Part shown: one piece after another, positions 3,474-13,237 of the stretch
Layout of the letters: the number at the start of each line of letters is the position of its first letter
Numbering within the stretch: the first letter of the stretch is position 1
Source of the DNA: Streptomyces rimosus
Lineage (GTDB): Bacteria; Actinomycetota; Actinomycetes; Streptomycetales; Streptomycetaceae
Length of the DNA: 64,000 bases
Assembly: GCF_008704655.1 (NCBI RefSeq)
Contig: NZ_CP023688.1
Location: forward strand, 6,330,001 to 6,394,000
Direction: 5' to 3'
Translations under genes and position numbers: made by a program
Notes under the pieces: model-generated
Told to the model about the DNA's origin: nothing
Databases searched by the model: none
What the model saw: the letters and a program-made list of their open reading frames with translations, nothing else

Positions 3474-4346
3474 GTGGCCACATCGCGCCGCCGCCAGGAA
3501 CTTCGGGACTTCCTGATGAGCCGCCGGGCCCGGGTCAGCCCGGCCGACGCCGGCCTGCCCGACGGAGGCCGCCGCCGTACGCCGGGACTGCGCCGCGAAG
3601 AGGTCGCGGTGCTCGCGGGGGTCGGCGCCTCCTGGTACCAGTGGCTGGAACAGGGCCGCGACATCACCGTCTCGCCGCAGGTCCTGGACTCCGTGGCGCG
3701 GGTGCTGCGGCTGAGCGACACCGAGCGGCGGCACCTGTACGTACTGGCAGGGCTCAACCCGCCGCTGCCACAGGCCCCGGACCCCGCGATGCTCGACATG
3801 AGCGAGGGGCTGCAACGGCTGATCGACGCGTGGATGCCGTTCCCGGCGCACATCCTCGACCCGTACTGGAACTGCGTCGCCTACAACGAGGCGGCGCGGC
3901 TGGTCCTCAACTACGGCCAGAAGGGCTCCCGTTCCAACTGTCTGATCTCCTACTTCACCGATCCGGTCTATCGGTCCCGCGCCGCCAGCTGGGAGCGGAA
4001 CGCGCCGACGATCGTGGCGCAGTACCGGGCGGCGTGGTCGCAGCGGGCCGGTGACGAGGGGTACGAGGACGTCGTGCGGGAGGTGTCCGCGGCCAGCGCG
4101 GAGTTCGCGGAGCTGTGGGCGCGCGGGGACGTGCAGGACGGCGGGCAGATCCACAAGGAGCTGGAGCACCCGCTCGTCGGCACGCTGCTGTTCGAAGCCA
4201 CCCAGCTGCGGGTGCCGGCCCGCCCGGACCTGACCATCGTGCTGCACAACCCCCGCCGGACGGCGGAGGTGGACACGGCGGCGAAGCTGGAGTGGCTCAC
4301 CTCGCCGGAGGGCCGGCGGGGCGGGATGTATTCGGTGGCGGGCTGA
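3474..4346 (+). CDS. XRE-family regulator with MmyB-like ligand domain
   Basis: DNA-binding transcription regulator of 290 aa. An N-terminal helix-turn-helix (about residues 8-85) carries the family hallmark PGLRREEVAVLAGV near residue 37 and WYQWLEQGRDI just after; residues ~105-285 form the MmyB-type (PAS-like) ligand-binding domain with the NCVAYNEAARLV-type core. The ligand is unknown; characterised relatives control antibiotic genes or a divergent reductase or exporter. Start is GTG with AGGGGG upstream at about 3461-3467. It stands alone between the rRNA operon and a small unrelated gene, so its target is not evident. A paralogue lies at 33736-34641. Confidence 0.9.
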   Translation: MATSRRRQELRDFLMSRRARVSPADAGLPDGGRRRTPGLRREEVAVLAGVGASWYQWLEQGRDITVSPQVLDSVARVLRLSDTERRHLYVLAGLNPPLPQAPDPAMLDMSEGLQRLIDAWMPFPAHILDPYWNCVAYNEAARLVLNYGQKGSRSNCLISYFTDPVYRSRAASWERNAPTIVAQYRAAWSQRAGDEGYEDVVREVSAASAEFAELWARGDVQDGGQIHKELEHPLVGTLLFEATQLRVPARPDLTIVLHNPRRTAEVDTAAKLEWLTSPEGRRGGMYSVAG

Positions 4347-4441: not shown

Positions 4442-4795
4442 ATGAGCGAAGCCGCACCGCTGGACCCGGAAGACCGCAAGATCATCACGCTGGCCCGTTC
4501 CGCGCGGGCTCGCAACGGCGTGCCGGAAGGCGCCGCCGTCCGCGACGAGACCGGGCGCACGTATGTCGCCGGTACCGTCGCGCTGGAGTCGTTGCAGCTC
4601 AGCGCGTTGCGTACGGCGGTAGCGATGGCCGTCGCGAGCGGTGCGCAGTCGCTGGAGGCCGCCGCCGTGGTGACCGCGGCGCAGACCGCGACGGCCGAGG
4701 ACCTCGCGGCCGTACGGGACCTGGGCGGCGCCGGGACGCCGGTGCTGGTCGCCGGTCCGGACGGCACGCTGCGGGCCACGGTCCAGGCGGGCTGA
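4442..4795 (+). CDS. Degenerate cytidine-deaminase-fold protein
   Basis: Protein of 117 aa, alanine-rich, resembling the small cytidine-deaminase-like protein usually encoded just before era in Streptomyces. The layout (REDRKIITLAR-like start, an RNGVPEGAAV segment, alpha-helical middle, C-terminal beta strand with VLVAGPDGTLRATV) fits a deaminase fold. However, the zinc-binding His-Ala-Glu and Pro-Cys-x-x-Cys motifs are absent and there is no cysteine at all, so deaminase activity is unlikely. ATG at 4442 is preferred; an in-frame ATG at 4430 would add four residues. Here it is separated from era by the 7.4-kb oxidative block. Confidence 0.7.
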   Translation: MSEAAPLDPEDRKIITLARSARARNGVPEGAAVRDETGRTYVAGTVALESLQLSALRTAVAMAVASGAQSLEAAAVVTAAQTATAEDLAAVRDLGGAGTPVLVAGPDGTLRATVQAG

Positions 4796-4814: not shown

Positions 4815-6437
4815 TCACCCGGAGCGGACCGCACCCCCGACCGGCCCACCGCCACCAGCCGCACCCGCGACCGAGCCGCCGCCCCCGACCGGCCCACCGC
4901 CCCCGACCAGACCCAGCAGGGCCCGCTTGTCCGGCTTGCCGCTCCCCGCGACCGGTACCTCCGCGATGACGGTGATCGTGGCGGGCACGCTCGCGGGGCC
5001 CAGCTCCGCCGCGACGTGCGTGCGCAGCGCGGCCGGGTCGGGCCGCCGTTCCGCCGTCGGTACGACGAACGCGTGGGCGGCCTCGCCGGTCCGCTCGTCC
5101 GGCGCGCCCACGACGTACGCCTGGTCCACGTCCGGGTGCCGGGCCAGCGCCTGTTCGATGGCGCCCGCGTAGTGCAGTACGGCGTTGACGATGATCACCT
5201 CGCGGGTGCGCCCGGTGAGCCGCAGGAAGCCGTGCTCGTCGAGGCGGCCGAGGTCGCGGGTGCGTACCCAGCCGTCGCGCAGCACGGCGCGGGTCTCCGC
5301 CTCGTCGCGCCAGTAACCGGCCAGTGCCCCGGCGGTACGGACCCAGATCTCCCCGGTGGCGCCGTCGGCCGGCGGCTGCCCGCCGCCCGGGTCCCGTACG
5401 TCGATCTCCACCCCGTCCAAGGGCCGCCCCACCGTGCCGTACGCCGACCGGGGCCCGTGGGCGAGGTCGTCGGGCGTGAGCAGGGTCAGCATGCCGGTCT
5501 CGGTCTGGCCGTATCCCTGGTGCACGACCGGGCCGAGCCGTTCGGTGGCCTCGGCGAGGCGGTGCGGCGCCAGGGGGGATCCGGCCACGAGCAGGGCGCG
5601 CAGGCTGCTGGTGTCCACGGGCTCGGTACGCAGGGTGTCCAGGATGTGGTACAGCCGGGGGACGGTGAGCAGGCAGGCGGTGATGCGGTGCCGCGCGAAG
5701 ACCTCCGGGAAGGACGGCGGCGGGTCGGGGATGACGGCGGTGCCGCCGCCGAGGAGGCACAGCCCCAGATGCTCGAAGATCACCGCGCTGGTGAGGGTGC
5801 CGAAGAGCAGGAAGCGCGCGTAGGCGGCGGCGAGCGCGGAGGTCCGCGCGGTCCAGCGGGCGGGCTGCCACGACCAACTCGCGCTCAGGCTGCGGTAGGT
5901 GTGGGCGCACCGCTTGGGCTGCCCGGTGCTGCCGCTGGTCAGGGTGATCAGCGCGATGTCGTCCGGGCGCCCGCGGGGCACGAGGTCGTCCGGTGAGGTG
6001 GCGACCGCCGTACTCAACAGGTCCTTTTCCAGGCGGAGTCGGCCGAGGTCACCGGCTGCCGTGAAGAGTTCGGGGGTGCCCGACGGCTCGTCGTGCACCA
6101 GGACGTCGATGCCGTCGGACAGGATCTGCGCGAGGTGCCGCGGCGGCAGTCCGGGGCGCAGGCCGGTCAGCCGGGCGCCCAGCAAGTGCACCGCCAGGTG
6201 CAGGGCGAACGTCTCGGGGGTGACACCGGCGGCGACCGCGACGGACGAGCCCGGGCCGATGCCCGCGGCGCGCAGTCCGCGTACGCAGCGGGCGGCCCGG
6301 TCCAGGACCTCGCGGCGCGGGACGGCGCGTCCCCGGTGTTCGAAGGCCGCCGTGTCCGGCTGCCGTCGGAAGGCGTCGACGAGGGCGTGCGGGAAGACGT
6401 GGTCGCGGGGCAATGGGCTTTCGGCTGGCTGATTCAT
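4815..6437 (-). CDS. ANL-family AMP-dependent ligase (acyl/aryl adenylating)
   Basis: Adenylate-forming enzyme, 540 aa, predicted to activate a carboxylic acid with ATP for transfer to CoA or another acceptor. Visible motifs: phosphate-binding TLTSGSTGQPK (residues ~165-175), YGQTETG (~309-315), GWVRTRDLG (~389-397), the hinge GRTREVI (~409-415) and the catalytic lysine in GSGKPDKRAL (Lys ~501). The last ~30 residues are an unusual Gly-rich tail with repeated GGGGPVGG units after the normal family end. Start at 6437 has AGGAG at 6451-6455. It is transcribed divergently from the monooxygenase at 6728 and shares its regulatory region. No carrier protein or synthase gene is nearby, so the substrate cannot be named. 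Confidence 0.85.
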   Translation of the reverse strand: MNQPAESPLPRDHVFPHALVDAFRRQPDTAAFEHRGRAVPRREVLDRAARCVRGLRAAGIGPGSSVAVAAGVTPETFALHLAVHLLGARLTGLRPGLPPRHLAQILSDGIDVLVHDEPSGTPELFTAAGDLGRLRLEKDLLSTAVATSPDDLVPRGRPDDIALITLTSGSTGQPKRCAHTYRSLSASWSWQPARWTARTSALAAAYARFLLFGTLTSAVIFEHLGLCLLGGGTAVIPDPPPSFPEVFARHRITACLLTVPRLYHILDTLRTEPVDTSSLRALLVAGSPLAPHRLAEATERLGPVVHQGYGQTETGMLTLLTPDDLAHGPRSAYGTVGRPLDGVEIDVRDPGGGQPPADGATGEIWVRTAGALAGYWRDEAETRAVLRDGWVRTRDLGRLDEHGFLRLTGRTREVIIVNAVLHYAGAIEQALARHPDVDQAYVVGAPDERTGEAAHAFVVPTAERRPDPAALRTHVAAELGPASVPATITVIAEVPVAGSGKPDKRALLGLVGGGGPVGGGGSVAGAAGGGGPVGGAVRSG

Positions 6438-6727
6438 TTCGCTGCATCCGCTCCTGGAGGTGAACGGCTGAAATGCGTCACGGGACCGGCGGGACAAGCG
6501 GGGCGTGGCGTACGGGCGGAGCAATGCGGGGGCCCGCCGGGGCGCGACAGAACGGCGTTCCGGGTAAAAGTCCCGGACCTTGTGACACTGGCTTCCGCAG
6601 CGTACTCGCAAACCTCAAAAAAGGTGTGACGCAGATCACTTAATCGCGTACTGGTGCCGTGCTTTAACACTCAAGTAATGTCGGTTTCCGCTCCATCTCC
6701 ATCCTTCGCAGGTGACAGGAGAATTGC
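6438..6727. promoter_or_regulatory. Divergent promoter region with CRP-like site
   Basis: This 290-bp gap drives the ligase leftwards and the oxidase genes rightwards. From about 6590 to 6700 it is clearly less GC-rich than its surroundings. A near-palindrome TGTGACGCAGATCACT at 6625-6640 matches the CRP/FNR pattern TGTGA-N6-TCACA except for the last base. AGGAG at 6717-6721 is the ribosome site for the gene starting at 6728. Confidence 0.5.
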
Positions 6728-8347
6728 GTGAGCCACGAAGAAACGACGGACTATCTGGTGGTCGGTGCGGGACCCGCCGGATTACAGGCCGGATATTTTC
6801 TGCAGCAGGCCGGGCGCAGTTATCTCATCGTGGAGGCCGGTGCGGCCCCCGGTACGTTTTTCACCCGCTTTCCCCGGCACCGCACGCTCATTTCCATCAA
6901 CAAGGTGCACACCGGGTGGGACGACCCCGAGCTGAACATGCGCACCGACTGGAACTCCCTGCTCTCCGACGAGCGCACCCCGCTGTTCACCGCCCGCACC
7001 CCGCGCTATTTCCCCGCCGCCGACGAGATGGTCGGCTATCTCGCCGACTTCGCCGCCACGCACCGGCTCCGCATCCGCTACAACACCCACGTCACCGAGA
7101 TCTCCCGGCCGGACGGCGGCCCGTCCGGCCCCGGCGACTTCCACGTCCGTACCGCCGACGGCGCCGTCCTGCGCGCCCGGCGGCTCATCGTGGCGACCGG
7201 CGTGACCCGCCCGTACGTGCCCCCCATCGAGGGCGTCGAGGAGGTCGAGCGCTACGACGAGGTGGACGTGGACCCGGCCGCCTTCACCGGGCAGCGGGTG
7301 CTGATCATCGGCCGCGGCAACTCCGCGTTCGAAACCGCGGACAACCTCATCGAGACCGCCTCCGTCATCCACGTCGCCGGCCCCGGCTCGCTGAAGCTCG
7401 CCTGGCAGACCCATTTCGTCGGACACCTGCGGGCCGTCAACAACAACTTTCTCGACACCTATCAGCTGAAATTGCAGAACGCGGTGCTGGACGGCAACAT
7501 CCTGCGTATCCGGCGGCAAGCGGACGGTACCTATAAGGTCTCCGTGTCCTTTTCCCGGGTCCAGGAAGTCGTCAAGGACATCGTGTACGACCGGGTCATC
7601 CTCGCCACCGGATTCCGCTTCGACCCGACGATATTCGCCCCGGCGTGCCGCCCCGAACTGGCGATCAACGACAGATTCCCGGCGCAGACCGACGCCTGGG
7701 AATCCGTGAACGTACCCGGGCTGTACTTCGCCGGCACCATCACCCAGGTACGCGATTTCAAGAAAACCACCAGTGGTTTCATCCACGGCTTCCGGTACGG
7801 CGTACGGGCCCTGCACCGCATCCTCGAAGCCCGCCACCACGGCCGGCCCTGGCCCGCCCGGACGCTGCCCGGCACCGCCGAGGCCGTCACCGACGCGGCG
7901 ATCGCCCGCGTCAACCGCAGCTCGGCGCTCTTCCAGATGTTCGGCTTCCTCGCCGACGCGGTGCTCGTCGACCGGGACGGCACGGCCCGCTACTGCGAAG
8001 AGGTCCCGGTCGACCATCTGCACACCGCCGTCGCGGACGGCGGCTTCGGCGACATCGACCGGTACTTCACCGTCACCCTCGAATACGGCGAGGGCCACGA
8101 CAAGGTGAACCCCTTCGACATCACCGCGGGCCGCAACTCCCAGCAGGACACCACCGGCCTGGACGGCCGCTACCTGCACCCCGTGATCCGCGCCTTCGAC
8201 GGCGCGGCGCCCGGCAAGGCGACCGCCGAGCACCACGTCACCGAGAACCTCGAAAACGAGTGGGACAGCGAGGAGGTCCACCGCGCGCCCCTGCGGAGCT
8301 TCCTGCGTACCCGGCTCTCCGAGCGGGACGCGGCGGCCCGGCCGTGA
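6728..8347 (+). CDS. FAD-dependent monooxygenase, FOXRED2-like
   Basis: Flavoprotein of 539 aa. The N-terminal FAD-binding Rossmann motif is VVGAGPAGLQ (residues ~11-20); a second NAD(P)H-binding motif, IIGRGNSAFETA (~193-204), follows an ATG-type strand VATGVTRPYVP (~155-165); a second such strand, LATGFRFDP, lies near residue 295. This two-dinucleotide layout is that of flavin monooxygenases and FOXRED2-like proteins; the region after ~350 is family-specific and I cannot assign it. Substrate unknown. The start is GTG with AGGAG seven bases upstream. The 3' end overlaps the next gene (GTGA), so it is probably translated together with the FMN oxidase. Its 5' part uses more A/T-ending codons than its neighbours. 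Confidence 0.82.
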   Translation: MSHEETTDYLVVGAGPAGLQAGYFLQQAGRSYLIVEAGAAPGTFFTRFPRHRTLISINKVHTGWDDPELNMRTDWNSLLSDERTPLFTARTPRYFPAADEMVGYLADFAATHRLRIRYNTHVTEISRPDGGPSGPGDFHVRTADGAVLRARRLIVATGVTRPYVPPIEGVEEVERYDEVDVDPAAFTGQRVLIIGRGNSAFETADNLIETASVIHVAGPGSLKLAWQTHFVGHLRAVNNNFLDTYQLKLQNAVLDGNILRIRRQADGTYKVSVSFSRVQEVVKDIVYDRVILATGFRFDPTIFAPACRPELAINDRFPAQTDAWESVNVPGLYFAGTITQVRDFKKTTSGFIHGFRYGVRALHRILEARHHGRPWPARTLPGTAEAVTDAAIARVNRSSALFQMFGFLADAVLVDRDGTARYCEEVPVDHLHTAVADGGFGDIDRYFTVTLEYGEGHDKVNPFDITAGRNSQQDTTGLDGRYLHPVIRAFDGAAPGKATAEHHVTENLENEWDSEEVHRAPLRSFLRTRLSERDAAARP

Positions 8348-9444
8348 TCCCCACCCTCGCCGACCTGCACGAACAGGCGCGGGAACGGCTCGCCCCCCGG
8401 GTGTACGACTACTTCGCCGGCGGCGCCGGCGGGGAGACGGCCCTGCGCGAGAACGAGGCGGCGTTCCGCAGGCTCGCCCTGCTGCCCCGCGTCCTGCGCG
8501 GGGCGGCCACCCGCGACCTGTCCGTCACGCTGTGCGGCGACCGCCTGTCCCTGCCCGTCCTGGTCTCGCCCACCGCCTTTCACCGCCTCGCCCATCCGGA
8601 GGGCGAACTCGCCACCGCCCGCGCGACGGCGGCGGCCGGCACGGTCCTGGTCACCGGCATGGCGGCGACCGTGCCGGTGGCCGAGGTGACCGCCGCCGCC
8701 CGCGCGGTACGGGCCGATGCGCCCGTGTGGTTCCAGCTCTATCTGCAGCCCGAACCGGAGGTCACGCTCGCGCTGGTGCGCCGGGCGGAGCGGGCCGGGT
8801 GCTCGGCGCTGGTCGTCACCGTCGACTCGCCGGTCTTCGGCCGCCGCGAACGCGACGCCCGGCACGGCTTCGACGACCTGCCCGACGGCCTGGCCGCCGA
8901 GAACATGCGCGGCCTGCCCGGCGCCCCGGACGGCCGCCCCCGCGACATCGCCATGACGCCGGGCCTCTCCTGGGACGACCTGCGCCGGCTGCGGGCGCAG
9001 ACCCGGCTGCCGGTGCTGCTCAAGGGCATCCTGCACCCAGGCGACGCCCGGATCGCCGTCGCCGAGGGCGTGGACGGCCTGCTGGTCTCCAACCACGGCG
9101 GCCGTCAGCTCGACGCCGCACCGGCGAGCATCGAGGCGCTGCCCGCCGTCGTCCTGGCCGTCGCGGGCCGGGTGCCGGTGCTGCTGGACGGCGGCGTACG
9201 GCGGGGCTCGGACGCGGCCGTGGCCCTCGCCCTGGGTGCGTCGGCCGTGGGTATCGGCCGCCCGGTGCTGTGGGGCCTGGCCGCGGACGGCGAGAAGGGC
9301 GTCCGGCACGTACTGGAGCTGCTGCGCGCCGAGTTCGACCACGTACTGGCGCTGTGCGGCGGCGGCAGCCCGGCCGACCTCGGGCCGGACCTGGTGGTCG
9401 CGCGGGGGAGTGCGCGCGGCGAAGGCGAAGGGGAGGCCCGATGA
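8344..9444 (+). CDS. FMN-dependent alpha-hydroxy-acid oxidase/dehydrogenase
   Basis: Member of the lactate oxidase / mandelate dehydrogenase / glycolate oxidase family, 366 aa, which oxidises an L-alpha-hydroxy acid to the alpha-keto acid. Family residues are in place: YDYFAGGAG (~21-29), the Tyr of QLYLQ (~131-135), FMN-contacting Lys in LLKG (~227), the catalytic base and substrate arginine in SNHGGRQLD (His ~251, Arg ~254) and the phosphate-binding LDGGVRRGSD (~281-290). Start GTG at 8344 overlaps the preceding stop codon. It resembles 4-hydroxymandelate oxidases of antibiotic pathways, but no other gene of that pathway is here, so substrate preference is open. Confidence 0.88.
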   Translation: MIPTLADLHEQARERLAPRVYDYFAGGAGGETALRENEAAFRRLALLPRVLRGAATRDLSVTLCGDRLSLPVLVSPTAFHRLAHPEGELATARATAAAGTVLVTGMAATVPVAEVTAAARAVRADAPVWFQLYLQPEPEVTLALVRRAERAGCSALVVTVDSPVFGRRERDARHGFDDLPDGLAAENMRGLPGAPDGRPRDIAMTPGLSWDDLRRLRAQTRLPVLLKGILHPGDARIAVAEGVDGLLVSNHGGRQLDAAPASIEALPAVVLAVAGRVPVLLDGGVRRGSDAAVALALGASAVGIGRPVLWGLAADGEKGVRHVLELLRAEFDHVLALCGGGSPADLGPDLVVARGSARGEGEGEAR

Positions 9445-10865
9445 ACACCCTCCGCACCGCCAAGCTGCTCGCCGCCGCGGCCGGTCTCCTCTCCGTCCCG
9501 TACTGGCTGCCGCGCTCCGTCGTCGCCGCCCGCGTCGCGCTCTTCGCGCGGATCAACGGCGACGAGGGCATCGCCTTCCCGAGCGCCGACGTCCCCGCCG
9601 ACCGCTTCCAGGAGATCTACTCCCACCCCGCCGCCAACGGCCGCAGCCGGGGCGCCGCCCTCTCGGACCTCTTCTGGTACTGGCTGGCGCCCGGCCCCGA
9701 GGTGCACCAGGAGCACCTGGAGGACGGCCCGCGCTACGACGAGGTCGCCCGTACCACCCTCGCCGTGCTGGGCGGTCCCAGCCGCGAGCTGTCCGCCGCG
9801 GTGGCCCGCCGTACCGCCGCCGTGCTCGACGAACTGGTCACCGGCCGGGCCGAGTTGGTCCGGCTGCGCGACCTGATGATGCCGGTGTGGGCGGAGTTCT
9901 TCTACGGACTCGTGTTCCGCGAACCGTGCCCGCCGTACGTCCGGCGCCTGATCGTGGACAACGCCGCCGACGTGGTCAACTCCCTGAAGTGCACCCGGCT
10001 CCGCCACCCGGCCCGCCGCGCCCGCCTCACCCGCCACCTGCGGCAGCGCATCGCCGCCGGGACCGTACCGCCGCACCACCTGCCGGGCTCCCTCACGCCC
10101 GACGAGCAGGCGTACTACCTCCAGGGCACCTTCTTCAACACGGCCATCGTCCAGATGTCCGAGGCCATGGCCCACCTGCTGCTGGTCCTCGCCCAGCACC
10201 CGGAGGCGCAGCGCAGGCTCGCCGCCGGACCGGACGACGACCGGTACTTCTCCAACGTCCTCAACGAGACGCTGCGGCTCTACCCGCTCTTCGGCGTCGC
10301 CCACCGCATCAGCACGGACGACATCCCGCTCGGCCCCGGCACGGCCATCCCCGCCGGCTCCGTCCTGTGCTTCAACTACCCCGACTACCACGCCACCGGC
10401 TACACCGACCCCGAGGTCTTCGACCCCGCCCGCTGGGACCGCCTGGTGGCCAAGGAGCAGCACCACATCCCGTTCGGCGTCGCCGCCAACCGGCCGTGCC
10501 CGGCCTGGCGGCTCGCCCCGCTGGCCATGCACGCCGCGACCCGCGAGGTGCTGCGCCGCTTCACCCTCCACTCCACCGTCGCCCACACCCGCTCCATCCC
10601 GCACCGCGCCCCCTGCCTGCTGGTCCGGCGCGACCGTCCGCTGCCGAAGCACCGGCTGCTCGCCGCCCGGGTCTTCCTGAGGGTGCGCGACCGGTGGGAG
10701 GACGTGTGGCGCAGCTGCGTCCAGCTCGTCCTCGGTACGTGGATGGTGCTCGACGCCCGCCGCCTGCGCCCGGCCGAGCGCTACTTCGCCACCCACGACA
10801 CGCAGGGCGTCCCGCTGCCGGGCACCGCCCCCGCCCCGGCGCGCTGTCCGTACCCGCACGCCTGA
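9441..10865 (+). CDS. Cytochrome P450, divergent
   Basis: Predicted heme monooxygenase, 474 aa. The ExxR motif (ETLR, residues 276-279) is followed by the heme loop FGVAANRPCPAW with axial Cys at ~353. The loop has one residue more between FG and Cys than the usual FGxGxHxCxG, and both later glycines are replaced. The I helix (~226-246, GTFFNTAIVQMSEAM) lacks a clear AGxxT oxygen-activation motif. A hydrophobic N-terminus (~8-35) could be a membrane anchor, unusual for bacterial P450s. A 60-residue C-terminal extension follows the normal end. ATG at 9441 overlaps the previous stop (ATGA). Redox partners are not encoded nearby. Confidence 0.78.
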   Translation: MNTLRTAKLLAAAAGLLSVPYWLPRSVVAARVALFARINGDEGIAFPSADVPADRFQEIYSHPAANGRSRGAALSDLFWYWLAPGPEVHQEHLEDGPRYDEVARTTLAVLGGPSRELSAAVARRTAAVLDELVTGRAELVRLRDLMMPVWAEFFYGLVFREPCPPYVRRLIVDNAADVVNSLKCTRLRHPARRARLTRHLRQRIAAGTVPPHHLPGSLTPDEQAYYLQGTFFNTAIVQMSEAMAHLLLVLAQHPEAQRRLAAGPDDDRYFSNVLNETLRLYPLFGVAHRISTDDIPLGPGTAIPAGSVLCFNYPDYHATGYTDPEVFDPARWDRLVAKEQHHIPFGVAANRPCPAWRLAPLAMHAATREVLRRFTLHSTVAHTRSIPHRAPCLLVRRDRPLPKHRLLAARVFLRVRDRWEDVWRSCVQLVLGTWMVLDARRLRPAERYFATHDTQGVPLPGTAPAPARCPYPHA

Positions 10866-10946
10866 CCCACGAGCCCGCCCCGTCCGGGCCCGGCACCCGG
10901 GCCCGCCCGTCCCCGTACGTCCCCGCGAGCCGAAGGGCGTTCCGCC

Positions 10947-12215
10947 ATGTCCACCACCGAGTTGGGGCCGGTCTTCTTCCTGGCCGTCGTCGTCATCCTG
11001 CTCGTCTGCCGGCTGGTCGGCCGGGCCCTGCGCGCACTGGGCCAGCCGCCCGTGGTGGGCGAGATGGTCGCCGGCGTGGTGCTGGGGCCGTCCGTGCTGG
11101 GCCTGCTGGCGCCCGGCGTGGAGGCGGCCCTCTTCCCGCCGGAACTGCGGCCCGCGCTGTATGTCGCCGGGCAGATCGGCCTGGTCGTCTTCATGTTCCA
11201 GACCGGCTACGAGTTCCGTACGGCGGGCATCCGGAGGGTGGCCAAGCCGGCCACGATGATCTCCTCGGCCGGCATCCTCGTACCGTTCGCGCTGGGCGTG
11301 GGGCTGACCTACGCCGTCCACGACAGCGTCGACGTCTTCCCGAAGGACGTGGCCGTCGGCGTCTCGGCCCTCTTCGTCGGCGTAACTCTCGCGATCACCG
11401 CGTTCCCCATGCTGGCCCGCATCATCACCGAGCGCGGCCTGACCGGCACCCGCTTCGGCTCCCTGTCCCTGGCGTCCGGCGCGGTGGACGACGCGCTGGC
11501 GTGGGTGCTGCTCGCCGGGGTGCTGGGCATGGCCGGCAGCGGCACCGGGCCGCTGCTCATCGCCCTCGCCGGGAGCGCCGGCCTGGTGGTCGTCCTCGCG
11601 CTGCTCGCCCGCTCCGGCACCCGCCTGGCGGGCCTCACCCACCGCCGGGCCCCCGACGAGCTGCTGCTGGTCACCGTCGTCCTGCTCTTCCTCGCCGCCT
11701 GGTACACCGACCGCATCGGCCTGTACGCGGTCTTCGGCGCGTTCAGCCTGGGCGTGGTCTTCCCGCGCTCCGAGGCGGTGGACCGCGCGATCGAGGCGAT
11801 CGGGCCGATCAGCCGGATCGTCTTCCTGCCGCTGTTCTTCACCTACTCCGGCCTGAACACCGACTTCGCGCTGCTGGCCTCGCCCGGCCTGCTGCTGTTC
11901 ACCGTGGCCTGCGTCGCCCTGGCCGTCCTCGGCAAGCTGGGCGCCTGCTGGCTGGCGGCCCGGGCGGCGGGGGAGGAGGGCGCGGTCGCGCTGCGCATCG
12001 GGACGCTGATGAACGCGCGGGGCCTGATGCAGCTCATCGCGATCAACATCGGCCTGGCGGCCGGCATCGTGACGCCGTCGCTGTTCGCGGTGCTGGTCGT
12101 GGTGGCGCTGGTGACGACGGTGATGGCCACCCCGCTGCTCACCCTGTGGGACCGCATCGACGCCCGCCGGGCGGTCGGCCCGGCGCGGGCGGAGCGGGTC
12201 GGCGCCGCGCCCTGA
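10947..12215 (+). CDS. CPA2-family cation/proton antiporter
   Basis: Integral membrane antiporter, 422 aa, about 12 hydrophobic segments. Family features are the N-terminal GQPPVVGEMVAGVVLGPSVL (~residues 32-51) and an Asp-Asp pair in SGAVDDALAW (~177), the ion-binding site in this superfamily. No cytoplasmic RCK/TrkA domain is attached. It lies 81 bp after the P450 on the same strand. Antiporters of this type accompany polyether and other antibiotic clusters, where they counter ion stress or export; here that link is inference. ATG 10947 lacks a strong ribosome site (GAAGGGCG 8-15 bases upstream). Confidence 0.85.
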   Translation: MSTTELGPVFFLAVVVILLVCRLVGRALRALGQPPVVGEMVAGVVLGPSVLGLLAPGVEAALFPPELRPALYVAGQIGLVVFMFQTGYEFRTAGIRRVAKPATMISSAGILVPFALGVGLTYAVHDSVDVFPKDVAVGVSALFVGVTLAITAFPMLARIITERGLTGTRFGSLSLASGAVDDALAWVLLAGVLGMAGSGTGPLLIALAGSAGLVVVLALLARSGTRLAGLTHRRAPDELLLVTVVLLFLAAWYTDRIGLYAVFGAFSLGVVFPRSEAVDRAIEAIGPISRIVFLPLFFTYSGLNTDFALLASPGLLLFTVACVALAVLGKLGACWLAARAAGEEGAVALRIGTLMNARGLMQLIAINIGLAAGIVTPSLFAVLVVVALVTTVMATPLLTLWDRIDARRAVGPARAERVGAAP

Positions 12216-12298
12216 GCGGGCCGCGTACGGTACGGGCCGCCGGCCGCCGCCCGACCGGGTGGTCGGCGCGGCTCCGGCGATCGGGGACAATGGGCGCC

Positions 12299-13237
12299 AT
12301 GAGCGTTCCCACAGAGTCCTCCGCACCGCACCGCGCCGGCTTCGCCTGCTTCGTCGGCCGCCCGAACGCGGGCAAGTCGACCCTCACGAACGCTCTGGTC
12401 GGTACGAAGGTGGCCATCACCTCCAACCGCCCGCAGACCACCCGGCACACCGTGCGCGGCATCGTGCACCGCCCGGACGCCCAGCTCGTCCTGGTCGACA
12501 CCCCGGGCCTGCACAAGCCGCGCACCCTGCTCGGCGAGCGGCTCAACGACGTCGTACGCACCACCTGGGCCGAGGTCGACGTGATCGGCTTCTGCCTGCC
12601 CGCCGACCAGAAGCTCGGCCCCGGCGACCGCTTCATCGCGGGCGAGCTGGCCGGGATCAAGAAGACCCCGAAGATCGCCATCGTCACCAAGACCGACCTG
12701 GTCGACTCCAAGCAGCTCGCCGAACAGCTGCTCGCCGTCGACCGGCTCGGCCAGGAGCTGGGCATCGAGTGGGCGGAGATCATTCCGGTCTCGGCGGTCG
12801 GCGACAAGCAGGTGCAGCTCGTCGCGGACCTGCTCGTCCCGATGCTCCCCGAGAGCCCCCCGCTCTACCCCGAGGGCGACCTCACCGACGAGCCCGAGCA
12901 GGTCATGGTCGCCGAGCTGATCCGCGAGGCGGCCCTCGAAGGCGTACGGGACGAGCTGCCGCACTCCATCGCCGTCGTCGTCGAGGAGATGCTGCCGCGC
13001 GAGGACCGCCCGGCCGACAAGCCGCTGCTGGACATCCACGCCAACGTCTACATCGAGCGGCCCAGCCAGAAGGGGATCATCATCGGCCCCAAGGGGAAGC
13101 GGCTGAAGGAGGTCGGCATGAAGTCCCGCAAGCACATCGAGGCGCTGCTCGGCACGCCGGTCTACCTCGACCTGCACGTCAAGGTCGCCAAGGACTGGCA
13201 GCGCGACCCGAAGCAACTGCGCAAGCTCGGCTTCTGA
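12299..13237 (+). CDS. era: GTPase Era
   Basis: Ribosome-assembly GTPase that binds the 3' end of 16S rRNA, 312 aa. All G motifs are visible: G1 GRPNAGKST (~20-28), G2 TTRHTVRG, G3 DTPG, G4 TKTD and G5 SAV. The C-terminal KH RNA-binding domain carries IIGPKGKRLKEVGMKSRKHI (~260-280). ATG at 12299 is chosen; the in-frame ATG at 12290 would add MGA. In other Streptomyces era directly follows the cytidine-deaminase-like gene; here the oxidative block lies between. Confidence 0.96.
   Translation: MSVPTESSAPHRAGFACFVGRPNAGKSTLTNALVGTKVAITSNRPQTTRHTVRGIVHRPDAQLVLVDTPGLHKPRTLLGERLNDVVRTTWAEVDVIGFCLPADQKLGPGDRFIAGELAGIKKTPKIAIVTKTDLVDSKQLAEQLLAVDRLGQELGIEWAEIIPVSAVGDKQVQLVADLLVPMLPESPPLYPEGDLTDEPEQVMVAELIREAALEGVRDELPHSIAVVVEEMLPREDRPADKPLLDIHANVYIERPSQKGIIIGPKGKRLKEVGMKSRKHIEALLGTPVYLDLHVKVAKDWQRDPKQLRKLGF

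Follow-up and report, generated by a model that had tools for sequence, protein, structure and literature searches.

The gene block considered here has partial counterparts in several described systems. The mandelate pathway consists of S-mandelate dehydrogenase and benzoylformate decarboxylase; the flavin mononucleotide (FMN)-dependent 2-hydroxy acid oxidases include those for glycolate, lactate, and 4-hydroxymandelate; McbA represents a type of amide bond synthetase; and bacterial phenylpropanoid-type clusters are exemplified by bagremycin/ferroverdin and by the Kutzneria p-coumaric acid cluster. Here, we analyse five intact genes at positions 4815–12215 of a 64,000-nucleotide stretch of the Streptomyces rimosus chromosome (NZ_CP023688.1, positions 6,330,001 to 6,394,000; below, the window). 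An ANL ligase on the reverse strand is followed on the forward strand by a flavin adenine dinucleotide (FAD) flavoprotein, an FMN enzyme, a cytochrome P450, and a cation:proton antiporter. A preliminary description, made from the sequence alone, had presented these genes as a compact oxidative pathway, which understated the finding: together they represent one version of a recurrent, modular set that lacks a scaffold-making enzyme. The FAD-FMN-P450 trio is its conserved core, to which exchangeable genes are attached, the ligase itself being one of them.

The most likely role of the block is in the specialised metabolism of an aryl-type acid. We give about an even chance to the fuller reading that it is a self-contained, carrier-free unit which has moved between genomes and which activates and oxidises an acid, probably of the aryl type, by way of a 2-hydroxy acid and a 2-oxo acid.

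The distribution of the core was assessed on two sets of loci, namely, the best 80 of 363 related stretches in a species collection, a choice that favours the window's own type, and the loci of 41 P450-positive genomes from a draw of 392 Streptomyces genomes. The two sets share genomes, and their members are related by descent; Fisher and binomial values computed on them are therefore not independent-sample probabilities. Locus types were assigned with an in-house gene caller and clustering. The P450 profile (A1, built from 18 family members) has one match each in 41 of the 392 Streptomyces genomes, and a phylum-wide draw of 396 genomes gave matches in 6. Whole-genome searches scored three to four candidates per genome, and all absences and single-copy statements hold at that depth. 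The searches with the P450, with the second ligase (ANLb), and with the ammonia-lyase described below are taken as one 392-genome draw (search request and genome handles agree).

All 80 loci contain the P450 and FMN genes, and the FAD gene, the ligase, and the antiporter are present in 78, 73, and 58 of them, respectively. Beyond nine named families, no further family recurs in more than 11 of the 80 loci (rarer families were left unannotated). The trio is consecutive on one strand at 75 loci; the FMN and P450 genes are adjacent on the same strand at 78, with a gap of at most 10 bp at 65 of these. The earlier proposal of a single FAD-FMN-P450 transcription unit with a divergent ligase is supported. 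In the Streptomyces draw, the full trio was found at 38 of 41 loci; two of the other three (G195, G147) are cut by contig ends, and the third (G682) holds an orphan P450. The genes thus keep company in other genomes, and the rare co-occurrence that the preliminary description had named as counting against it was not observed. In the plasmid collection, a single P450 relative reaches 60% identity, the other 26 records lying at about 29–39%; this relative comes from Nonomuraea gerenzanensis, with no annotated features under the match. There (NZ_LT559118.1:8624947-8627842), the FAD and P450 matches are 82 bp apart, leaving no room for an FMN gene between them.

The attachments to the core define several locus types. 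Among the 41 Streptomyces loci, nine are of type A, with the ligase divergent from the FAD gene as in the window, and 17 are of type B, with the ammonia-lyase and ANLb. A second class of P450 (class D) occurs with a ligase, located after the antiporter or divergent, at six loci, and with a thiamine-dependent enzyme directly after the antiporter at four. One locus on a short contig and the orphan P450 complete the set, apart from three class D loci considered below. Type B loci contain a two-component system and the lyase in 16 of 17 cases (G195 lies at a contig end), and ANLb also in 16 (G032 lies at a contig end). In the 80-locus set, the lyase, the sensor kinase, and the response regulator were found at 40, 40, and 39 loci, respectively; here, all lyase-less loci were called type A by script, including L117 (a 3.4 kb contig) and the rearranged L064, and L069 was set to type B by hand. 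The type B label requires three changes on the P450 tree, compared with a shuffled mean of 27.3, and hence exchange or loss of the lyase module must have happened repeatedly. Type C loci, from Nocardia, form one clade on this tree.

The type B lyase is likely a tyrosine ammonia-lyase, judging by its motifs; an aminomutase is possible. The 4-methylideneimidazole-5-one (MIO) motif GSVGASGDL and the His-Leu motif NTLAHLGAG, the latter of which we take to be a mark of tyrosine specificity, are both present in 40 of 40 sequences. Type B loci resemble the phenylpropanoid-type clusters in having a tyrosine-ammonia-lyase-like enzyme and an ANL ligase; however, the one lyase scanned against NCBIfam passes no cut-off, and with the BagA/FevW model it scores 238 bits, far below the cut-off of 1000. 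Likewise, class D loci with the thiamine-dependent enzyme resemble the mandelate pathway in that they combine a thiamine 2-oxo acid enzyme with a member of the FMN 2-hydroxy acid oxidase family, but they possess in addition the P450 and the FAD enzyme. Both thiamine enzymes scanned against NCBIfam exceed the cut-off of the unnamed subfamily PRK08266, the next model being 5-guanidino-2-oxopentanoate decarboxylase, below its cut-off. Such an enzyme is compatible with a 2-oxo acid as the product of the FMN enzyme.

Genome-wide searches show how closely these modules follow the core. ANLb matches at E ≤ 1e-110 (48–100% identity) occupy 32 places in 31 genomes, that is, at least 31 of the 41 core-positive genomes and none of the 351 core-negative ones, the former count being a lower bound for ligase presence since the threshold excluded the type A ligases of three genomes (G045, G023, and G736). 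Twenty of these places have 74–100% identity, and the other 12 (48–52%) are ligases beside the core. Lyase matches at 82–100% identity were found in 21 of 41 core-positive and 0 of 351 core-negative genomes; 11 further matches at 56–65% are divided between five genomes with the core P450 and six without it. Fisher values, uncorrected for relatedness, are 1e-37 for the ligase and 8e-24 for the lyase. In G022 and G186, the lyase-ligase-FAD module resides at a separate locus with unrelated flanking genes, and both genomes carry the core; G186 holds both kinds of ligase. The draft genome G073 has ANLb and the lyase on short contigs separate from the core. The strongest argument for a joint function of module and core comes from these separate-locus modules in core-owning genomes.

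At 1.18 Mb, near a P450 gene and an ANL gene, the S. rimosus genome encodes an MIO ammonia-lyase (L132:12176-13663) that shares about 57% identity with the type B enzyme, and lyase matches of 56–57% also occur in G036, G048, and G722. We considered the 1.18 Mb lyase as a missing partner of the block and did not accept it, as it is 57–59% identical, sits among other genes, and falls in a stretch listed as arylpolyene cluster 16 in the cluster table of PMC9045324.

The types differ in regulatory sites as well. The intergenic region between the ligase and FAD genes of the window contains the palindrome TGTGACGCAGATCAC at 6625–6639. In the 80-locus set, GTGA-N6-TCAC precedes the FAD gene at 26 of 31 type A, 0 of 40 type B, and 0 of 6 type C loci, the count being confined to the 77 loci with FAD directly before FMN (type A here includes L064); all 80 loci together contain 48 such sites in 1,635,175 bp. 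The 38 loci examined in the Streptomyces draw gave 8 of 9 for type A, 0 of 16 for type B, and 0 of 13 for class D. Conservation of the palindrome extends over type A loci of both Streptomycetaceae and Pseudonocardiaceae. The consensus of 27 aligned sites, TGTGA-Y-N-T-A-N-A-TCACA, matches the GlxR motif GTG(N)8CAC and, in part, the S. coelicolor Crp motif GTG(N)6GNCAC, as these motifs are given in PMC10033298. The weight lies in this conservation, since the window alone has two sites against 0.74 expected, which is no surprise. A wider form of the pattern has 41 matches in the S. rimosus genome (some counted on both strands) and 4 for a reversed control. A scan for the sigma-70 consensus and terminators yielded nothing above shuffled sequences, and the intergenic region between the ligase and FAD genes has no match to the sigma-70 consensus. 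Type A thus appears to be CRP-controlled, and type B has its own two-component system; CRP itself would be the protein that binds the palindrome.

The catalytic motifs of the core flavoenzymes are strongly conserved. In the FAD enzyme, which presumably resembles animal FOXRED2, GxGPAGL is invariant in 123 and PRHR in 138 covering rows of a 167-row alignment. The FMN enzyme is similar to glycolate/hydroxyacid and lactate oxidases; it shares with the FMN 2-hydroxy acid oxidases the FMN_dh domain and the catalytic His/Arg motif SNHGGRQ, present in 123 of 123 ungapped rows among 124 relatives. It differs from a lactate oxidase in having Ala, in 121 of 124 relatives, in place of a pocket Tyr, and this small residue may leave room for a larger substrate.

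The ligase starts most likely at the ATG at 6437, conserved in five aligned rimosus-group sequences, and not at the mechanical open reading frame start at 6611. It has the motifs TSGSTG..PK and YGQTE and the C-terminal Lys motif; among 106 aligned relatives, the first Lys of GKPDK never varies, nor do the Y, G, Q, and E of YGQTE, and the only exchanges within TSGSTG and YGQTE are between S and T. The closest solved chains, 6sq8 (230 bits) and 6h1b (227 bits), are both labelled "Fatty acid CoA ligase"; we take them to be the amide bond synthetase McbA, with which the ligase shares the common adenylation motifs and the GKPDK lysine region, yet the score of this best structural match is low. The McbA cluster has a Pictet-Spengler partner gene, which is not among the genes scanned here. 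According to PMC10804368, only a handful of homologues exceed 50% identity to McbA.

Taken together, these features suggest the following scheme. The core and its transporter would oxidise a carboxylic acid, probably of the aryl type, and the oxidation would run through the 2-hydroxy acid to the 2-oxo acid. The attached enzyme would handle the acid group: in the window, the ligase would adenylate the carboxylate and hand it to an amine or to CoA; in type B, the tyrosine-ammonia-lyase-like enzyme and the ligase would supply and activate p-coumarate; and in class D, the thiamine-dependent enzyme would decarboxylate or couple the 2-oxo acid. Expression of type A loci would be set by the CRP/cAMP-type operator between ligase and core, the antiporter would act in export, and the FMN oxidase would be expected to release hydrogen peroxide beside the P450. 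The earlier idea of a compact, carrier-free pathway that activates an acid and oxidises it fits the conserved catalytic motifs.

The expected release of peroxide raises the question of how the P450 is driven. Its heme-ligand Cys (C353 in the window) is present in 125 of 125 relatives. The ExxR motif (E276-T-L-R279) retains Glu in all 125 and Arg in 115, and the ten remaining proteins have Gln instead of Arg, which is unusual for a P450. The acid-alcohol pair of the I-helix is replaced by Val237-Gln238 in 125 of 125 sequences; the corresponding residues of CYP3A5 are Glu-Thr, a placement obtained by ungapped extension of the CYP3A5 alignment, which itself starts just after the pair. It is conceivable, if unlikely, that peroxide made in situ by the FMN oxidase drives this P450, so that no ferredoxin is needed. 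The tight coupling of the FMN and P450 genes and the universal Val-Gln favour such an arrangement, as does the lack of any further gene family, and hence of a ferredoxin, recurring in most of the 80 loci. However, P450s with other chemistry have also lost the pair, and electrons could reach this P450 from host ferredoxins or from the FAD enzyme as its reductase. Moreover, at three class D loci (L023, L045, L047), the FAD gene is directly preceded by a ferredoxin-like gene that neighbours another P450, and very small genes such as that of a ferredoxin may escape the gene caller used. PMC10750395 describes CYP105D18 as driven by hydrogen peroxide made in situ by glucose oxidase and cites changes in the I-helix pair as raising peroxygenase activity. 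In the account of the pair in PMC9112060, in turn, it is the proton relay that makes compound I, and it is important for the O2 and peroxide routes alike, which cuts both ways for a peroxide-driven P450. Since its direct operon partner is an FMN oxidase and the recurring set includes no ferredoxin, the P450 may well be driven by peroxide. We consider it doubtful, at the same time, that a coupled oxidase-peroxygenase, in which the peroxide by-product of the FMN oxidase feeds a P450 devoid of the O2-activating pair, lies at the centre of a modular aryl-acid pathway that needs no carrier and swaps its acid module, transporter, and regulator.

Other explanations place the block in degradation or in polyether biosynthesis. 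In a degradative, mandelate-like route, the core would turn imported aromatic 2-hydroxy acids into 2-oxo acids, the thiamine enzyme would yield an aldehyde and the ligase an acyl-CoA for catabolism, and the transporter would function in uptake or pH control. The FMN enzyme with its thiamine-dependent neighbour is what such a route would look like, and a CRP-type operator is consistent with carbon control. The transporter slot agrees too: at 11 of the 80 loci and 6 of the 41 Streptomyces loci, an MFS (major facilitator superfamily) protein takes the place of the antiporter, the two never occurring together, and the best NCBIfam model for the one scanned is an aromatic acid/H+ symporter (139 bits against a cut-off of 419). 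Nevertheless, a tyrosine-ammonia-lyase-like enzyme suggests that the acid is made from tyrosine and not taken up, most loci are without a ring-cleavage or aldehyde dehydrogenase gene, given the recurrence limit stated above, and both the patchy occurrence (41 of 392 genomes) and the dedicated two-component system of nearly all type B loci look like specialised metabolism; we regard the degradative route as improbable. Given the same exchange of transporters, the polyether flavour that had been ascribed to the antiporter is not supported. CPA2 antiporters do occur in polyether clusters, and this is what a polyether or polyketide tailoring island has in its favour. Neither the block nor its scanned neighbours contain a polyketide synthase (PKS) or carrier domain, however, and no such family recurs in more than 11 of the 80 loci. 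Membership in a polyether cluster was rejected, as the linked PKS and epoxidation/cyclisation genes are absent from the block and the scanned neighbours, and a tailoring island of this kind seems hardly credible.

Several observations weigh against the activation and oxidation of an aryl-type acid that we prefer. In the FMN enzyme, the Tyr of YDYFAG, which aligns with a Tyr of lactate oxidase, is Phe in 50 of 124 relatives, and His replaces the second Arg of GRRERD in 61 of them; hence, its reaction may differ from that assumed here. The ligase lies far below every curated cut-off shown. Some loci depart from the common composition: G682 retains the P450 (L185:4518-6017, 67% identical) with no FAD or FMN gene nearby, the gene order of L064 is rearranged, L060 has no FAD gene, and three of the 41 Streptomyces loci, all of class D, contain neither ligase nor thiamine enzyme. 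A second FAD enzyme is found at 11 of the 17 type B loci and lacking at six, two of them at contig ends. Finally, the S. rimosus genome has no close copy of the lyase module (its best lyase match, at 57%, is in another region), and the acid of type A loci need not be aromatic.

The window genome is a single contig of 9.36 Mb. The gene calls and overlaps, the divergent ligase, and the antiporter, all of which had been described before, were confirmed by open reading frames, GC content by codon position, and Pfam domains (Table 1); the FAD and FMN genes overlap by GTGA at 8344 and the FMN and P450 genes by ATGA at 9441. Ratios of nonsynonymous to synonymous substitution rates (dN/dS) for the five genes are 0.15–0.45 against G048, 0.19–0.43 against G722, and 0.28–0.47 against G736, indicating that all five are under purifying selection. 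A domain scan of the five proteins and five neighbours detected no nonribosomal peptide synthetase (NRPS), PKS, or carrier-protein domains, as had been stated for carrier protein, synthase, and NRPS module.

Table 1. Coordinates in the window of the genes and regulatory elements of the block.
Feature	Position	Strand	Support
ANL ligase	4815..6437	-	Pfam AMP-binding (5.9e-60) and AMP-binding_C
Ligase-FAD intergenic region (divergent promoter)	6438..6727	.	Alignment; largely conserved in the rimosus group
CRP/GlxR-type palindrome TGTGA-N6-TCAC	6625..6640 (TGTGA-N6-TCAC at 6625-6639)	.	Conservation in type A loci
FAD/NAD(P)H flavoprotein	6728..8347	+	Pfam Pyr_redox_3; weak likeness to small flavin monooxygenases
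FMN-dependent 2-hydroxy acid oxidase family enzyme	8344..9444	+	Pfam FMN_dh (1.2e-121)
Cytochrome P450, distinct family	9441..10865	+	Pfam p450; without acid-alcohol pair
CPA2-type cation:proton antiporter	10947..12215	+	Pfam Na_H_Exchanger (1.2e-49); TIGR00932 at 128 bits (below cut-off, 238)

The block occupies 7.5 kb between a cytidine-deaminase-like gene (4442–4795; no Pfam match, named from the appearance of its sequence) and era (12290–13237). When the era surroundings of 29 other Streptomyces genomes were inspected, 14 showed the deaminase gene inside the 1.5 kb flank, and in the other 15 it was not seen there; the 14 genes are less than 500 bp from era in nine cases, about 0.8–1.1 kb in four, and downstream on the other strand in one. 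Both flanks surround the core at four of the 41 Streptomyces loci (G000, the window genome, and G036, G048, G722), the others lacking them in the fetched stretch. Because the deaminase gene lies close to era in some other Streptomyces and these flanks are shared by only four core loci, the block looks like an insertion in a core genome region. The deaminase-era junction is a variable spot: 13 of the 29 genomes have the two genes on the same strand and no more than about 1.1 kb apart, and it is here that the rimosus group carries the block. An MmyB-like regulator (3474–4346) was rejected as a cluster regulator, since MmyB homologues (64–70%) lie on the same strand beside the deaminase-like gene at five era loci that lack the block there (L152, L153, L156, L160, L164).

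In Table 4 of PMC9045324, antiSMASH 6 and manual curation give 46 chromosomal clusters for S. rimosus ATCC 10970 (9,365,899 bp), none of them between 5,841,023 and 6,587,454. Ectoine synthase is at 7,240,619 in the window genome and the ectoine cluster at 7,244,554–7,247,941 in that table; the positions agree within several kb, and thus the block is absent from the table. No described cluster with this gene set was found in the open PubMed Central literature searched either, in line with the earlier statement that no described cluster with this set was recognised. On the whole, the observation of the preliminary description is real and its interpretation is partly supported. It did not recognise the trio as a core with an exchangeable ligase, nor did it include the ammonia-lyase module, the CRP-type operator, or the non-canonical nature of the P450.

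With a recurrent gene set that is not listed in a curated antiSMASH 6 table of a well-studied industrial species, the product class is likely unexplored. The swaps between modules hint at the chemistry involved, i.e., tyrosine, transport of the aromatic-acid type, and a 2-oxo acid. The pair of P450 and oxidase, in turn, may reveal a self-supplied peroxide chemistry of use in biocatalysis.

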